From a virus, in the IMG/VR virus record IMGVR_UViG_3300022602_000278, positions 1 through 32,888 of that record: a DNA stretch of 32,888 nucleotides; one strand, written 5' to 3'. The notes below the pieces were generated by a model. It was not told the DNA's origin, did no database searches, and was given only the letters and a program-made list of their open reading frames with translations. Position 1 is the first letter of the stretch. Every line of letters starts with the position of its first letter. The translations under genes and the position numbers were made by a program. This document shows, in pieces, positions 15,539 through 24,650 of the stretch.

Positions 15539-15565
15539 ATACTAACATAAAGCTTACAAAGTCAA
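15539..15565 (-). promoter_or_regulatory. Putative promoter of the late (terS) operon
   Basis: On the minus strand TTGACT (15565-15560) is followed after 15 bases by TAGTAT (15544-15539), a weak match with a short spacer. Between them lies TTTGTAAGCTTTA, also found in the GTAAG array at 20278. No better -10 was seen, so an activator or a different -10 is possible. Confidence 0.35.
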
Positions 15566-15588: not shown

Positions 15589-15607
15589 TGTAAGGAAATT
15601 CCTTACA
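15589..15607. promoter_or_regulatory. Perfect 19-base dyad TGTAAGGAA-A-TTCCTTACA, candidate operator
   Basis: The two 9-base arms are exact reverse complements around a central A. It lies 24 bases upstream of the putative terS -35 and contains the same GTAAG half-site that is repeated at 20272-20352. It looks like a dimeric regulator site. Confidence 0.55.
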
Positions 15608-15872
15608 AGTTGTATTTTTTAAAAAATTTTTTTCAGGATTTGTAAAACTATTTTTTGCATATTGCTAGTAACTAAAAGCCCCCTGATGGTGTGGGTAGAA
15701 AGTAATGACCCCCTTTTTCGATTTTGATAGGCAAAAAAACCCCTATAGCTGAAACGCCAGGCAGAATAAGGCTTGCAAGCCGATAAGCCCTGAAGCCCTT
15801 ATATAATGGGGCTTTTGGGCTAGGCTGCATTCAGATAAAAAGTTAAGGCGGGAAAAGTTAAGGCTAAGGCCT

Positions 15873-15900: not shown

Positions 15901-16385
15901 AAGAATGAGGCTATTATGGGTCAAATTGTCATAGATTCCATGTAGCACTTAGCAAAATAGAATATAGCATTTAACGGAAAATTTAAAACCAAAGGGGGGC
16001 GAGATAAAAAATTACCTCATACCCTCAGCACTTAAAAAACTATCATTTAGCACACCTCAAAATGCACTCATACATAGCCAAAAAATGAAGGGCAACGCTA
16101 AAAATTGTCAATTGTCAAATTGTCATACCCTAAAAACTTAGCCCGTGAAATTATGCGTATTTTTACATATTCACTTTTAGAAAATCTAAATAATAAATAA
16201 AAATGACAATATAACCCAAAAGCCCCGAATCCCGTATCCTATATGGCCTTTTCGATAGGTCATAACCCATCACCCATTTTTGACAATTCGCCCATACTTT
16301 AACCCATAACATAGCCCGATTGTCAAATAGTCATAACCCCCTATTCGCTAGCTAAAAATAAAAAGCAAAAACCGAAATTTAAAGG

Positions 16386-16414
16386 TAGACATATTGTTAC
16401 GATTGTCATACTAT
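16386..16414 (+). promoter_or_regulatory. Early-type promoter upstream of the AP2-like gene
   Basis: TAGACA (16386-16391), a 17-base spacer and TACTAT (16409-16414). It sits in the box AAAGGTAGACATATTGT, which occurs again at 16903 before the small-gene array. ATG of the AP2-like gene is about 37 bases downstream of the -10. Confidence 0.5.
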
Positions 16415-20065: not shown

Positions 20066-20069
20066 ATAA

Positions 20070-20092
20070 GCCCCCTTATTGGGGGTTTTTTT
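20070..20092 (+). terminator. Rho-independent terminator ending the small-gene array
   Basis: CCCCC (20071-20075), loop TTATT, GGGGG (20081-20085), then seven T, four bases after the TAA of the last gene. Confidence 0.9.
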
Positions 20093-20139: not shown

Positions 20140-20358
20140 CAAAAAAGACTTAATTCAAAACTTTAGATTTTAGACCTAAGGCTATGATTCTATTGTGTTT
20201 TATTTTTTAAGTTAAAGTTAATTTTTATGTTAAGGTGCTAAGTGTATGATTTTATTGATATAAAGTTTCGTGTAAGTTTTGTAAGCTTTAGTAAGTTTCG
20301 TGTAAGCTTACAATTCTTACGTGAAACTTACAAAAACTTACGTGAAACTTACAAAACT
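20140..20358. other. Candidate replication origin: AT-rich stretch plus phased GTAAG/CTTAC array
   Basis: 20140-20262 is very AT-rich. From 20272 there are four GTAAG copies (20272, 20281, 20291, 20302) and then five CTTAC copies (20307, 20316, 20327, 20337, 20348), spaced 9 to 11 bases apart, so all lie on one face of the helix, converging on a centre near 20306. The arms 20291-20306 and 20316-20331 pair over 16 positions with two G-T pairs. It sits in a convergent intergenic gap, facing the primase operon. I found no gene in it. Confidence 0.55.
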
Positions 20359-20390
20359 CGAAAAATTTGCGAAAAACGGCCAAAAACCCA

Positions 20391-20429
20391 AAAAAATGGC
20401 CATTTGCGAAGGGGTCTACGCAAATGGCC
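20391..20429 (-). terminator. Rho-independent terminator of the leftward replication operon
   Basis: GGCCATTTGCG (20398-20408) and CGCAAATGGCC (20419-20429) are a perfect 11-base stem with a ten-base loop; on the minus strand it is followed by a T run (A run 20391-20396). It faces the terminator at 20070, so two convergent units end here. Confidence 0.8.
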
Positions 20430-21150: not shown

Positions 21151-21309
21151 TCACTCGCTTTCTTTAACCAACTCAACATCTACCCATTGACCAGCGCTTC
21201 CTGATGGGCTATTAGCAATACATACATCAAACTCTGTGCTGTGCCACCATTGTTGTAATACTTTACGATTGTCCTTCTCTACAAATCTAAGGTAATTTGT
21301 TGGATTCAT
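21151..21309 (-). CDS. Small protein, 52 aa (missed by length cutoffs)
   Basis: ATG at 21309 lies inside the end of the hexapeptide-repeat gene (23-base overlap) and is preceded by GGAGTGAGAA. Product MNPTNYLRFVEKDNRKVLQQ then WWHSTEFDVCIANSPSGS, ending WVDVELVKESE. A small alpha/beta unit with two adjacent tryptophans. Phage genomes often carry such short conserved proteins with WWxSxE near DNA-metabolism genes; a role is unknown. Its stop lies in the leader of the GIY-YIG gene. Confidence 0.6.
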   Translation of the reverse strand: MNPTNYLRFVEKDNRKVLQQWWHSTEFDVCIANSPSGSAGQWVDVELVKESE

Positions 21310-22063
21310 TTCTCACTCCAAAATTAAAAGCGATTAACTGACAAAATAAGCGATATTGCTCTAGGTGTGTTTGATTGTCCTTATGTGTTTTTTCAATTTC
21401 TTCTGAAAATTCATTGACAGTTCCACTAAAACATCCACAATTTACCCTAACACCTAAATTTTTATCAATGTGTGATGTAGTAAAGCGACCTGTTGATTTA
21501 GCAGGCCCAATAAGTAGCCATTGAACATTATTCTCAATAGTAGCATCGCCAGACACCCAAGCATCGCCAGATACCTGAGCATTACCATACACCCGAGCAT
21601 TACCATACACCCGAGCATTACCATACACACAAGCATTGCCATACACCCGAGCATCGCCATACACCCGAGCATCGCCATACACCCAAGCATCGCCAGACAC
21701 CCGAGCATTGTCATACACACAAGCATTGTCATACACACAAGAATCGCCATACACCCAAGCATCGCCAGACACCTGAGCATTACCATACACCCGAGCATTA
21801 CCAGACACCCGAGCATTACCAGACACCCAAGCATCGCTAGACACCTGAGCATTACCATACACCCGAGCATTACCATACACCCGAGCATTACCAGACACCC
21901 AAGCATCGCTAGACTGGTCTAAATTTTTTTCGCTTTCAATGTAGCCACCTAAATCACCAGTAGATACCAATGAACCAATAGAAACTAAAGCCTTAATACG
22001 CTTTAAAGTTTTTCCACCCAAAAAAATTTTATCGTTATCTAACATTTCGTATTTTTTGTTCAT
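21287..22063 (-). CDS. Left-handed beta-helix (hexapeptide-repeat) phage protein
   Basis: 258 residues. The N-terminal 50 (YEMLDNDKIFLGGKTLKRIK, then GDLGGYIESEKNL) is the usual start of a phage family of this type. Residues 52-183 are about 21 tandem hexapeptides such as GNARVY, GDAWVS and GNAQVS, the repeat of left-handed beta-helices. The C-terminal 60 residues contain RVNCGCFSG. ATG overlaps the previous stop (ATGA). No enzyme residues are recognised. Homologues are thought to be structural or to scaffold DNA metabolism, without proof. The codons are 18-base repeats, so copy number can change. Confidence 0.8.
   Translation of the reverse strand: MNKKYEMLDNDKIFLGGKTLKRIKALVSIGSLVSTGDLGGYIESEKNLDQSSDAWVSGNARVYGNARVYGNAQVSSDAWVSGNARVSGNARVYGNAQVSGDAWVYGDSCVYDNACVYDNARVSGDAWVYGDARVYGDARVYGNACVYGNARVYGNARVYGNAQVSGDAWVSGDATIENNVQWLLIGPAKSTGRFTTSHIDKNLGVRVNCGCFSGTVNEFSEEIEKTHKDNQTHLEQYRLFCQLIAFNFGVRNESNKLP
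21515..21910 (-). repeat. About 22 tandem 18-base repeats encoding hexapeptides
   Basis: Units such as GCATTACCATACACCCGA and its variants run through this part of the gene, each giving one hexapeptide. Both strands and other frames stay open through it, producing spurious long frames. The near-identity of neighbouring units points to recent copying. Confidence 0.85.
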
Positions 22064-22311
22064 TTCTCACTCGCTTTCTTTAGTATTGCTCTAGCAAATA
22101 AAATCCACATATCTCTGTCATCTTTACATTCAAGAGTTGTGCTCCATCTTGTTTCAAGTATTTCCTCATCACTTAATTGCTTTGGTTCTGTGTAAAGCGG
22201 TGTATCAAAATAATCATCTTTTACTGGACTTAATGAAGTAAGTTCATAAGTTATAGTCTCGACTTCAAGGCTATACTTACTTATCCATGCAACAGGTTCT
22301 TGTTTCATCAT
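22060..22311 (-). CDS. Small phage protein, 83 aa
   Basis: MMKQEPVAWISKYSLEVETI, then PLYTEPKQLSDEEILETRW and a C-terminal helix. The EPVAWI ... PLYTEP pattern is common in phage hypothetical proteins beside DNA-metabolism genes. ATG overlaps the primase stop (ATGA), and its own stop overlaps the next ATG, so all three are coupled. Function unknown; likely made with the replication proteins. Confidence 0.7.
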   Translation of the reverse strand: MMKQEPVAWISKYSLEVETITYELTSLSPVKDDYFDTPLYTEPKQLSDEEILETRWSTTLECKDDRDMWILFARAILKKASEK

Positions 22312-24650
22312 GCACTCTTCTTCATCTCTAATACAACAGCCTTAGGCGGTGTTACTTCTTCTACCATGCGTCGTAAGTCTGACTTGGTGTACTTAGGATC
22401 AAGGTCAGGTGCTTTAAAGATGTGCTTCTTATTAGAGAAATCAGCCGATGCAATACGGCCACAGTCAACCCAACCCGCCTCTTTCAAAGCATGAAGCAAT
22501 GCGGACTGTGGAACCTTCACACCAGACGGAGCCAAGCCTGCTAACTTATCGCACACTGCATGGAACGGACTGCCGATAACACCTTTAGCAAACTCGCCTA
22601 TACGCTTATGAAGCATATCCACAATGAATGACTCAGCCATAGAACGACCATGCTCAATCAAATTCATCTTGAACTCAGTCATAGCAGGCGATGCACCAGG
22701 ATTGAATGCGGATACGTCACGTGCATACAAGTACGATGCAATCTGCTCAAAGCCACCAAGGTGGAACCAATCCCAAATGGCTTTACCTTCATGGTCTCCC
22801 ATGCGTGGTGACTCAGAACTGATAGCAAACCAACGTCGATCTTGTGATGCCAGAGAAATAGGCACCGCTTCATTCGAGAACGCAAGAACAAATAGGCGGT
22901 TCGCCATTTGGTAGGGGTGCATCCCCTTACGATTGATGTCTAACATCTCAGGAGGTGCAGCAATGATAGGCTTGAGCTTATTAGCCAATGCCCTGCGAGT
23001 TGCGGCATCAGGCTCTTTCAACTCGTTGATGATAAGAATCTCGGATTCTAAGTTGTAGCCCCATTGAGAATGAATGCTATCGCTATCCATGTAGCCACGG
23101 TTCTTTAAATGCGGGCCACACACAGACCAAATAAACGGCGCCCACATCGTATCCTTACCGCAACCCTCATCGCCTACGTGCAACACGGCATGGTTAATCT
23201 TGATGTGCGGTTTTTGTAGCTTAAATGCCATAATGTCTAGAACGTGATTACGTTCCACTTCATCAGTAATCAAACGCTCAACCAATTCAAGCCATGGGCT
23301 GATGTCAGTAACTTCAACGTGTCTTACTTGTGGGCGAGCATCTACCCAACGATTGCCGTATAAAGCACCATGGCGACCTACCATCACTGATTCGCCTGCT
23401 GCGTAAGTTAAACCACGTACAGACTTGGCTTGATGTGCCTGGCGATTCTCGTCATAACAGATAGAAGCTTCAATCTTACGGCCTGTATGAATAGACTTGC
23501 AAGAGATATGGCGATACAAAGCATTGAATGTACCGCGGCTGATGTCTCGACGCTCTTGTAAATCAAAGTACGCATCGTCATCTTCAACATATACGAATCG
23601 ATCATACCATTCGGTCTTTTCAATACGGCCTAATTCTTTACGCTCTATCTCCGCAATAATGCTGTCAGAGGTAGCTTGAAACATATCTGATGGGGTTAGC
23701 TTTTCGAGAGCTTTACCCATCACCTCCTGCATCAATTCAGCACGCACACCTGGTTGGTGATTCGGGCCATTGTTTTCAGCAACCCATGCTAAATATGCAC
23801 GTGAGTCGATGTCTGCACAATGCTCGTGGTAACAGCAATAAGCACGGTTGACAGGGTGATAACGACCCATAGGATTACCATCAGAATGCTGTGCATTATT
23901 CGGGCATACAACTCCGTACCATCCTGTTGTGTTGGCATTTTCAAGTAGCATCCCCTGGTCACTAACCCATTGCAACACATCGTCGTCCCCGTCATCGGAC
24001 AAAGAGATGATTCTTTGGGAGGTGGTGTCTGCTTCACCTGGGGTGACATCAAGGGCATGGCATATCTCATCTAAAGTAAAGTCACGGTCAGGGTGGAACT
24101 CCACCAAGCGTGACACAAAGTTATTTCTACCTGGCTTCAAATTAATAGAGCCTGGCAAACGGAAGTTACGCACGGCATTGATGGCTCCGCCATCGGTATA
24201 GCCTGCGTCTGCAATCGCTTTAATCGCGGCAGTGAAAGCACCTTTCGTTGGTTGCTCATTCACATCAAAAATATAGCCCCACTGATAGTTCTCAGGCGAA
24301 GTCTCAATAATCCATGTAGGCTCTAATGGAGGTCTGCGTGACTTTGTGCCAATGTCATCTAGCACCATCACTAGCACATACTCGCAGTTGGAGGCAGATG
24401 CTGATAGCCTGCCATTCTCAAAGCGTTCTAGAATGAATGAGCCTGTGTTGGCATACCAAGCTTGCTCAGGTTTCCATTTAGATGGCAAAAACGCAGGCCA
24501 TGAATATTTTAAAGTTCCGTCACCATAAGTTAATTGTTTGCCATCGTGCATGATGGGCTTTTGACGGGTTAGTAATAGGGTTTCACCTTCAGCAGGCAAT
24601 GTAGATAGGTATTCAATAAATTCTATTGGTGATACAATTTTGTCAGCCAT
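22308..24650 (-). CDS. Primase-helicase (RepB-like primase, superfamily 3-type helicase)
   Basis: 780 residues. The N-terminal part has DDIG at about 98-101, then ETSPENYQWGYIF and GAINAVRNFRLPGSIN, the pattern of archaeo-eukaryotic-type (RepB/prim-pol) primases. Residues 249-278 form a Cys/His cluster (CPNNAQH ... CCYHEHC), a likely zinc element. The helicase has a Walker A-like GDEGCGKDT at about 493-501 and later LIINELKEPDAATRRAL and FSNEAVPISLASQDRRWF, as in DUF5906-type phage helicases. It would prime and unwind at the origin. AGAGGA precedes the start; the upstream terminator at 24676 suggests a separate promoter or readthrough. Confidence 0.85.
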   Translation of the reverse strand: MADKIVSPIEFIEYLSTLPAEGETLLLTRQKPIMHDGKQLTYGDGTLKYSWPAFLPSKWKPEQAWYANTGSFILERFENGRLSASASNCEYVLVMVLDDIGTKSRRPPLEPTWIIETSPENYQWGYIFDVNEQPTKGAFTAAIKAIADAGYTDGGAINAVRNFRLPGSINLKPGRNNFVSRLVEFHPDRDFTLDEICHALDVTPGEADTTSQRIISLSDDGDDDVLQWVSDQGMLLENANTTGWYGVVCPNNAQHSDGNPMGRYHPVNRAYCCYHEHCADIDSRAYLAWVAENNGPNHQPGVRAELMQEVMGKALEKLTPSDMFQATSDSIIAEIERKELGRIEKTEWYDRFVYVEDDDAYFDLQERRDISRGTFNALYRHISCKSIHTGRKIEASICYDENRQAHQAKSVRGLTYAAGESVMVGRHGALYGNRWVDARPQVRHVEVTDISPWLELVERLITDEVERNHVLDIMAFKLQKPHIKINHAVLHVGDEGCGKDTMWAPFIWSVCGPHLKNRGYMDSDSIHSQWGYNLESEILIINELKEPDAATRRALANKLKPIIAAPPEMLDINRKGMHPYQMANRLFVLAFSNEAVPISLASQDRRWFAISSESPRMGDHEGKAIWDWFHLGGFEQIASYLYARDVSAFNPGASPAMTEFKMNLIEHGRSMAESFIVDMLHKRIGEFAKGVIGSPFHAVCDKLAGLAPSGVKVPQSALLHALKEAGWVDCGRIASADFSNKKHIFKAPDLDPKYTKSDLRRMVEEVTPPKAVVLEMKKSA

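Follow-up and report, generated by a model that had tools for sequence, protein, structure and literature searches.

In phage P4, the initiator alpha combines primase, helicase and winged-helix origin-binding parts, and ori and crr are two separate cis sites. Promoters with Pho-box geometry carry, in place of the -35 element, an activator box made up of two direct repeats of 11 bp. Sites of the OmpR family are direct repeats that support class II activation, including the AgrR box of Cupriavidus (PMC7380067). In the SaPI Rep and SCCmec Cch2 proteins, a C-terminal domain binds the iterons of the origin (PMC7581432).

Here we analyze an array of short repeats in a 32.9-kb linear viral record (the window: the whole stretch of 32,888 nucleotides) from a tailed phage whose tail sheath is contractile. 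An initial annotation had taken the array for the phage origin or a centromere-like site. Our analysis favors a regulatory landing pad over an origin, because the phage's own origin most likely lies 4 kb away.

An inverted GTAAG/CTTAC array between convergent operons

The replication operon (exonuclease, DNA polymerase A, primase-helicase and small genes) occupies the minus strand and a small-gene operon the plus strand; a structural operon begins with the terminase genes. The array lies inside a 421-bp gap where the replication and small-gene operons converge, with a terminator at either end (Table 1). As first described, the site is free of genes, and the gap contains only mechanical open reading frames. 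Listing all positions reproduced the reported four GTAAG and five CTTAC at 9 to 11 base spacing, inverted about 20306/20307 and spanning 81 bp. Successive half-sites are 9, 10 and 11 bp apart, then 5 bp across the center, then 9, 11, 10 and 11 bp. Since the center step offsets the halves by half a turn, the nine sites are not all on one helix face; the phasing claimed earlier holds within each half and fails between them. The reported 16-base inverted pair with two G-T positions corresponds to the first two double sites of Table 1, of which a third copy follows. Altogether the array comprises three exact 16-mers and nine intact half-sites, near-perfect and evenly spaced.

Table 1. Coordinates of the array, its surroundings and the predicted replication elements in the window.
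Feature	Position	Strand	Basis or remark
Array left half, four GTAAG half-sites (20272, 20281, 20291, 20302)	20272-20306	+	
Array right half, five CTTAC (20307, 20316, 20327, 20337, 20348)	20307-20352	-	GTAAG on - strand
16-bp double site GTAAGTTTCGTGTAAG	20291-20306	+	11-bp direct repeat
16-bp double site CTTACGTGAAACTTAC	20316-20331	-	
16-bp double site CTTACGTGAAACTTAC, second copy	20337-20352	-	21-bp period
AT-rich flank	20143-20262	n/a	78% AT, base composition
Near-consensus IHF site AATCATACACTTA	20239-20251	-	1 mismatch; relatives have exact WATCARNNNNTTR at matching position
Second near-consensus IHF site AATCATAGCCTTA	20177-20189	-	1 mismatch
Intrinsic terminator of small-gene operon	20068-20091	+	also mapped as 20068-20088
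Terminator-like hairpin closing replication operon	20391-20429	-	11-bp perfect stem 20398-20429, then T run
Primase-helicase (AEP primase, SF3 helicase, C-terminal winged helix)	22308-24650	-	predicted initiator
Codons for residues 730-758	22377-22463	-	wing region covarying with iteron class
Eight TTGTCA/TGACAA copies (15926, 16105, 16112, 16120, 16204, 16281, 16320, 16403)	15926-16408	n/a	predicted origin iterons
Palindrome GTAAGGAAATTCCTTAC	15590-15606	n/a	upstream of terminase small subunit gene

Within 85 bp, GTAAG/CTTAC occurred at most 4 times in any of 5,000 dinucleotide shuffles of the gap, compared to nine observed, and across 60 shuffles of the whole window no 5-mer with at least three different letters occurred more than 7 times in such a span. 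The array is thus far from chance. Its direct-repeat half-sites fall at the 10-11 bp of OmpR/PhoB-type boxes, with the three double sites at 11 bp and the rest at 9-10 bp. The two runs point at each other, so that every site faces inward, and no -10-like hexamer was found 8-10 nt from any of the nine on the strand of that site. No intrinsic terminator (a G+C-rich hairpin and T run) was found within the array, and terminator-like sites occur at the flanks only. With no -10, inward-facing runs and terminators on both sides, the array cannot act as an ordinary promoter.

The AT-rich 120 bases noted on the left were also borne out, ranking in the top 0.3% of the window's 120-bp windows. DnaA boxes (TTWTNCACA) occur in the window at 813, 17426 and 27132 only, none of them in the gap. 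Neither the window nor the loci of six relatives matched an Rfam family. In comparisons with known phages over 18-22 kb, the sole DNA match was a YdcK-type beta-solenoid gene (21287-22063, minus strand). This gene is unlike its surroundings, and has 65-85% DNA identity to genes in phages infecting very distant hosts (Streptococcus, Vibrio, Aeromonas and Xanthomonas).

Outside the gap, a further CTTAC at 15553 lies near the small-terminase promoter. As GTAAG half-sites occur at this position and within the palindrome at 15590-15606, a link between the array and the small-terminase region is possible. The small terminase subunit itself is not supported as the binder of GTAAG sites, since relatives with a similar protein lack the palindrome (judged by eye).

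We searched with the primase and obtained 80 loci, with 75% identity for the nearest and 61-70% for most. Among those whose sequence includes the convergent gap, the eleven closest relatives likewise have a long gap free of genes, with 0-3 GTAAG/CTTAC per gap (about 1 expected by chance) versus 10 in the window. These gaps share a AAAATCAATnACTTA element matching the IHF consensus, with a G+C-rich block further on; the exact consensus occurs at 11 sites versus 0.4 expected from shuffles, in loci that are related and not all independent. This order is retained in the window gap, which has two one-mismatch IHF elements and a short stretch of GGGCGCAA. Because these shared elements keep their order and the array is missing from the relatives, the gap is homologous and the array peculiar to this phage. 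Relatives that keep the gap and not the array are largely the outcome that the initial annotation had named as counting against an origin. Its suggestion of a nearby small basic protein as the binder also lost ground: the neighboring 53-residue basic protein is an unlikely candidate, because relatives without the array have it too.

The relatives' gaps carry other conserved features. Eleven loci (L002-L007, L009, L010, L012, L014 and L203) share a conserved non-coding block, GCGAATAGnGCA.GGGCGCTATTCTCGC...CGATATTCGCGACAATAGCCCGC, which is missing from the window. Directly past the 53-residue gene, a structured sequence, CCTCTTAGGGGC..AAAGC...GCGAGTAGCCCCACTTTTTT, is conserved in L002, L004-L007, L010-L012 and L014. 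It may be a small RNA or else an elaborate terminator, and a scan of six loci found no matching Rfam family. Tandem repeats of 22 bp with the core CTTTACAATCC occupy the homologous gap in L004 (6270-6336), L010 (12064-12140) and L014 (4609-4670).

A recurrent box in phage and bacterial genomes

We scanned 2.9 million viral contigs for the 16-bp unit CTTAC-RYGAAA-CTTAC, with the reversed pattern as a control, and found at least 120 viral loci compared to 65 for the control. Among the matches listed, 18 of 120 loci carry more than one copy (control, 1/65) and 89 of 120 sites fall outside open reading frames (5/65). Using four different large-terminase queries covering several types of the protein, 42 of the 120 listed matches were found 0-2.5 kb upstream of a large-terminase gene versus 1/65 in the control, an enrichment somewhat inflated because the queries came partly from hit loci; the intergenic fraction is unaffected. 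Outside selected pairs, 11 bp was the sole strongly recurrent half-site spacing. The unit is not tied to the primase of our phage, as box-bearing phage records of 83 and 60 kb have no relative of it. The initial reading of an iteron-like array is supported as far as binding of a sequence-specific protein at multiple sites is concerned, because the 16-bp unit recurs in many phages, intergenic and clustered; as a claim to be the origin it is disfavored.

Many boxes have a TATAAT-like hexamer at a fixed distance: among 117 distinct viral sites listed, 19 have one after the box, 16 of them at 9 nt and 3 at 10 nt, compared to 0-3 at any other offset. In L082, L088, L094, L102, L111, L113, L116, L129, L195, L197, L199 and others, GTAAGTTTCRYGTAAG is followed by a -10 hexamer 9 nt on. 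Judged by these sequences, unrelated phages would repeatedly use GTAAGTTTCRYGTAAG with its -10 as a promoter box of the activator type. The occurrence of box and fixed-distance -10 before terminase genes suggests one common regulator, possibly the host's, across phages of different terminase types.

Bacterial chromosomes also carry the box, with Betaproteobacteria abundant among the first 80 matches listed. At three loci, single chromosomal boxes lie 39-57 bp before OmpR-type response-regulator genes, and an OmpR-type regulator is nearby at 4 of 76 chromosomal loci among the matches listed. The boxes before OmpR-type genes give a modest hint of autoregulation.

In ten phage loci (L091, L097, L102, L123, L151, L156, L170, L174, L190 and L201), at least two DnaA boxes (TTWTCCACA) lie within 600 bp of GTAAG boxes before the terminase; no locus of the control set has two or more near the pattern.

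Predicted initiator and iterons

The primase-helicase is the predicted initiator of this phage. Its full AlphaFold2 model matches NrS-1 (Z 17.9) and the SaPI5 primase-helicase (Z 15.1), and the C-terminal 97 residues form a winged helix whose best PDB matches are wHTH domains, weakly (Z 4-5). The model thus has the helicase core and C-terminal DNA-binding domain expected of an initiator.

Upstream of the small terminase gene, the relatives have dense, short intergenic repeats at 8-9 bp spacing that read GTCCAC, GGGTCA or TTGTCA depending on the phage. We compared repeat class with initiator sequence in L002-L081 and then in L344-L419, reading the second set without a preset repeat. In an alignment of the whole primase, the columns that best predict class cluster in residues 730-758, which sit in the wing of the modeled C-terminal winged helix. 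K734, R736 and D739 are present in 26/26 GTCCAC phages and in none with GGGTCA or TTGTCA. Wing KSR.D pairs with GTCCAC, VAS.D.S with GGGTCA and LASADFKS with TTGTCA; in the second set, LASAEYTT pairs with TGCCAA, LMSRDYT with TAGTCAT, LYSREY with CCTACA and IASRDYTT with CTTACA. Simple descent does not account for iteron class, as a tree built from residues 1-690, leaving out the wing, requires at least nine class changes.

The wing of the window initiator, IASADFSN, assigns it to the TTGTCA class. Between 15926 and 16408 TTGTCA occurs 8 times, versus 0.3 expected and a maximum of 4 in 3,000 shuffles, and the array gap contains none. This covariation places the origin of replication most probably in the TTGTCA iteron region, which is 4 kb from the array. 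We had entertained GTAAG as this phage's own iteron, and dropped it after tabulating the wing classes.

Phage repeats that are short and phased are routinely annotated as origins; here initiator covariation points to other repeats. Such covariation offers a generally applicable means of separating true iterons from other repeat arrays in phages that have not been cultured, and the residue-to-repeat code of the wing is possibly of more interest than the array itself.

Two further features mark the region upstream of the small terminase gene. A conserved block, AAAATCGAAAAAGGGGGTCATTA, found at 15690-15750 of the window and in L003-L017, is a candidate packaging site. L020, L024-L030, L034 and L038-L042 have arrays of 12-20-bp palindromes of the form GTNAGYRCTNAC, which we take to resemble the SlmA nucleoid-occlusion site GTGAGTACTCAC; a SlmA-like reading was discarded, as the half-site spacing in the window does not fit it.

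Possible roles of the array and comparison with known systems

Our preferred reading, tentative and a little short of even chances, is that the array is a promoter-less cluster of widespread phage regulator boxes. It would form a nucleoprotein platform, either titrating the regulator or insulating the two converging operons from each other. A DNA-binding protein would recognize the 11-bp direct-repeat box CTTAC-RYGAAA-CTTAC (GTAAG-TTTCRY-GTAAG on the other strand), whose geometry would be that of OmpR/PhoB-type winged-helix regulators. In other phages, as the sequence scans show, this box stands between genes before the terminase, often exactly 9 nt upstream of a -10, where it would replace the -35 element. 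In our phage, three full boxes and extra half-sites are arranged in two inward-facing runs between two terminators, without a -10; the array could titrate the protein that binds it, loop the DNA or act as a block to transcription. The host probably encodes the regulator. A narrower version, in which the array is a phage decoy, insulated by the terminators and titrating a host OmpR-type activator whose boxes drive the promoters of other phages, seems to us rather unlikely. Counting against the platform are the low share of chromosomal loci with an OmpR-type regulator nearby (only 4 of the 76), the array spacings of 9 and 10 bp, looser than the strict 11 bp elsewhere, and the AT-rich flank and IHF-like sites, which fit an origin equally. 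A decoy or insulator role is also weakened in that it rests on the absence of a promoter, without a positive signal.

The strongest rival, unlikely but well short of negligible, is an origin reading, in which GTAAG iterons bound by the primase-helicase or a partner serve as the phage origin, or else as a second or accessory one. Within this initiator family, CTTACA is itself one of the iteron classes. The identical wing ASRDYTT occurs in L054 and L131, whose overall identity is 63%, and in their origin regions CTTACA/ACTTAC is the top repeated hexamer (10 and 9 copies); L131 carries the 16-mer of the window. The AT-rich flank and two near-consensus IHF sites adjoin the array, the exact IHF consensus is enriched in the relatives' gaps, and in other phages the boxes are often near DnaA boxes. 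The array lies downstream of the primase operon, as SaPI origins lie downstream of rep (PMC7581432). Against this, the window wing (ASADFSN) belongs with TTGTCA, which is repeated elsewhere and absent from the gap, and the array is not conserved in the relatives' gaps. The GC-skew check proposed in the initial annotation places the array, at the meeting point of the convergent operons, at a local maximum of cumulative skew, which is weak evidence because skew tracks gene orientation. An accessory origin is conceivable if the window initiator is less choosy than the code or if a second protein acts.

Improbable, too, is a relic reading, in which the array stems from a promoter or origin region brought in from another phage by recombination and is now decaying without a function. 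Among close relatives only this phage has the array, and in other phages the box lies upstream of terminase genes, as a relic would predict, but decay sits poorly with its three exact 16-mers, intact half-sites and near-perfect even spacing.

Less probable again is a transcribed RNA hairpin or bidirectional terminator, for which both strands could form a long stem, with G-T positions that suit RNA. Single-stranded, 20255-20365 folds at -23.7 kcal/mol compared to a shuffle mean of -10.6 (z -5.7). However, neither arm is followed by a T tract, there is no promoter-like excess, and genuine terminators already flank the array. The R-Y wobble that the box shows in other phages accounts for the two G-T positions, and both forms occur there in directly repeated arrays that form no hairpin, such as L185.

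A centromere-like partition site or the attP of a temperate phage is very improbable: short inverted repeats and IHF-like sites resemble such sites in outline, but no partition gene was noticed among the annotated genes, leaving the centromere proposal of the initial annotation without support, and no tyrosine integrase (PF00589) was found in 14 records (the window and 13 relatives, several near 50 kb, none rated complete).

The locus can be set beside four known systems. Like the oriV of iteron plasmids, the array has phased repeats with an AT-rich stretch and IHF-like sites adjoining; unlike it, the runs are inverted rather than direct, no Rep_3-type gene is among those annotated and the gap has no DnaA box. 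The resemblance to P4 lies in the domain make-up of the initiator and in two separate cis sites; the GTAAG array mismatches the predicted specificity of the initiator. With SaPI Rep, SCCmec Cch2 and SaPI5 (PMC7581432; PDB 7ola), the phage shares a primase-helicase with a C-terminal domain that is predicted to recognize iterons. The array has the adjoining AT-rich stretch of a SaPI Rep-like origin, but by wing/iteron covariation its repeats are not those of its own initiator: GTAAG is another class, and the covarying TTGTCA copies lie 4 kb away. Unlike OmpR/PhoB activator boxes, the array consists of two inward runs of mixed 9/10/11-bp spacing in a convergent gap with no -10; like them, it has short half-sites phased at 11 bp, and in other phages its box takes the place of the -35 element, 9 nt before a -10.
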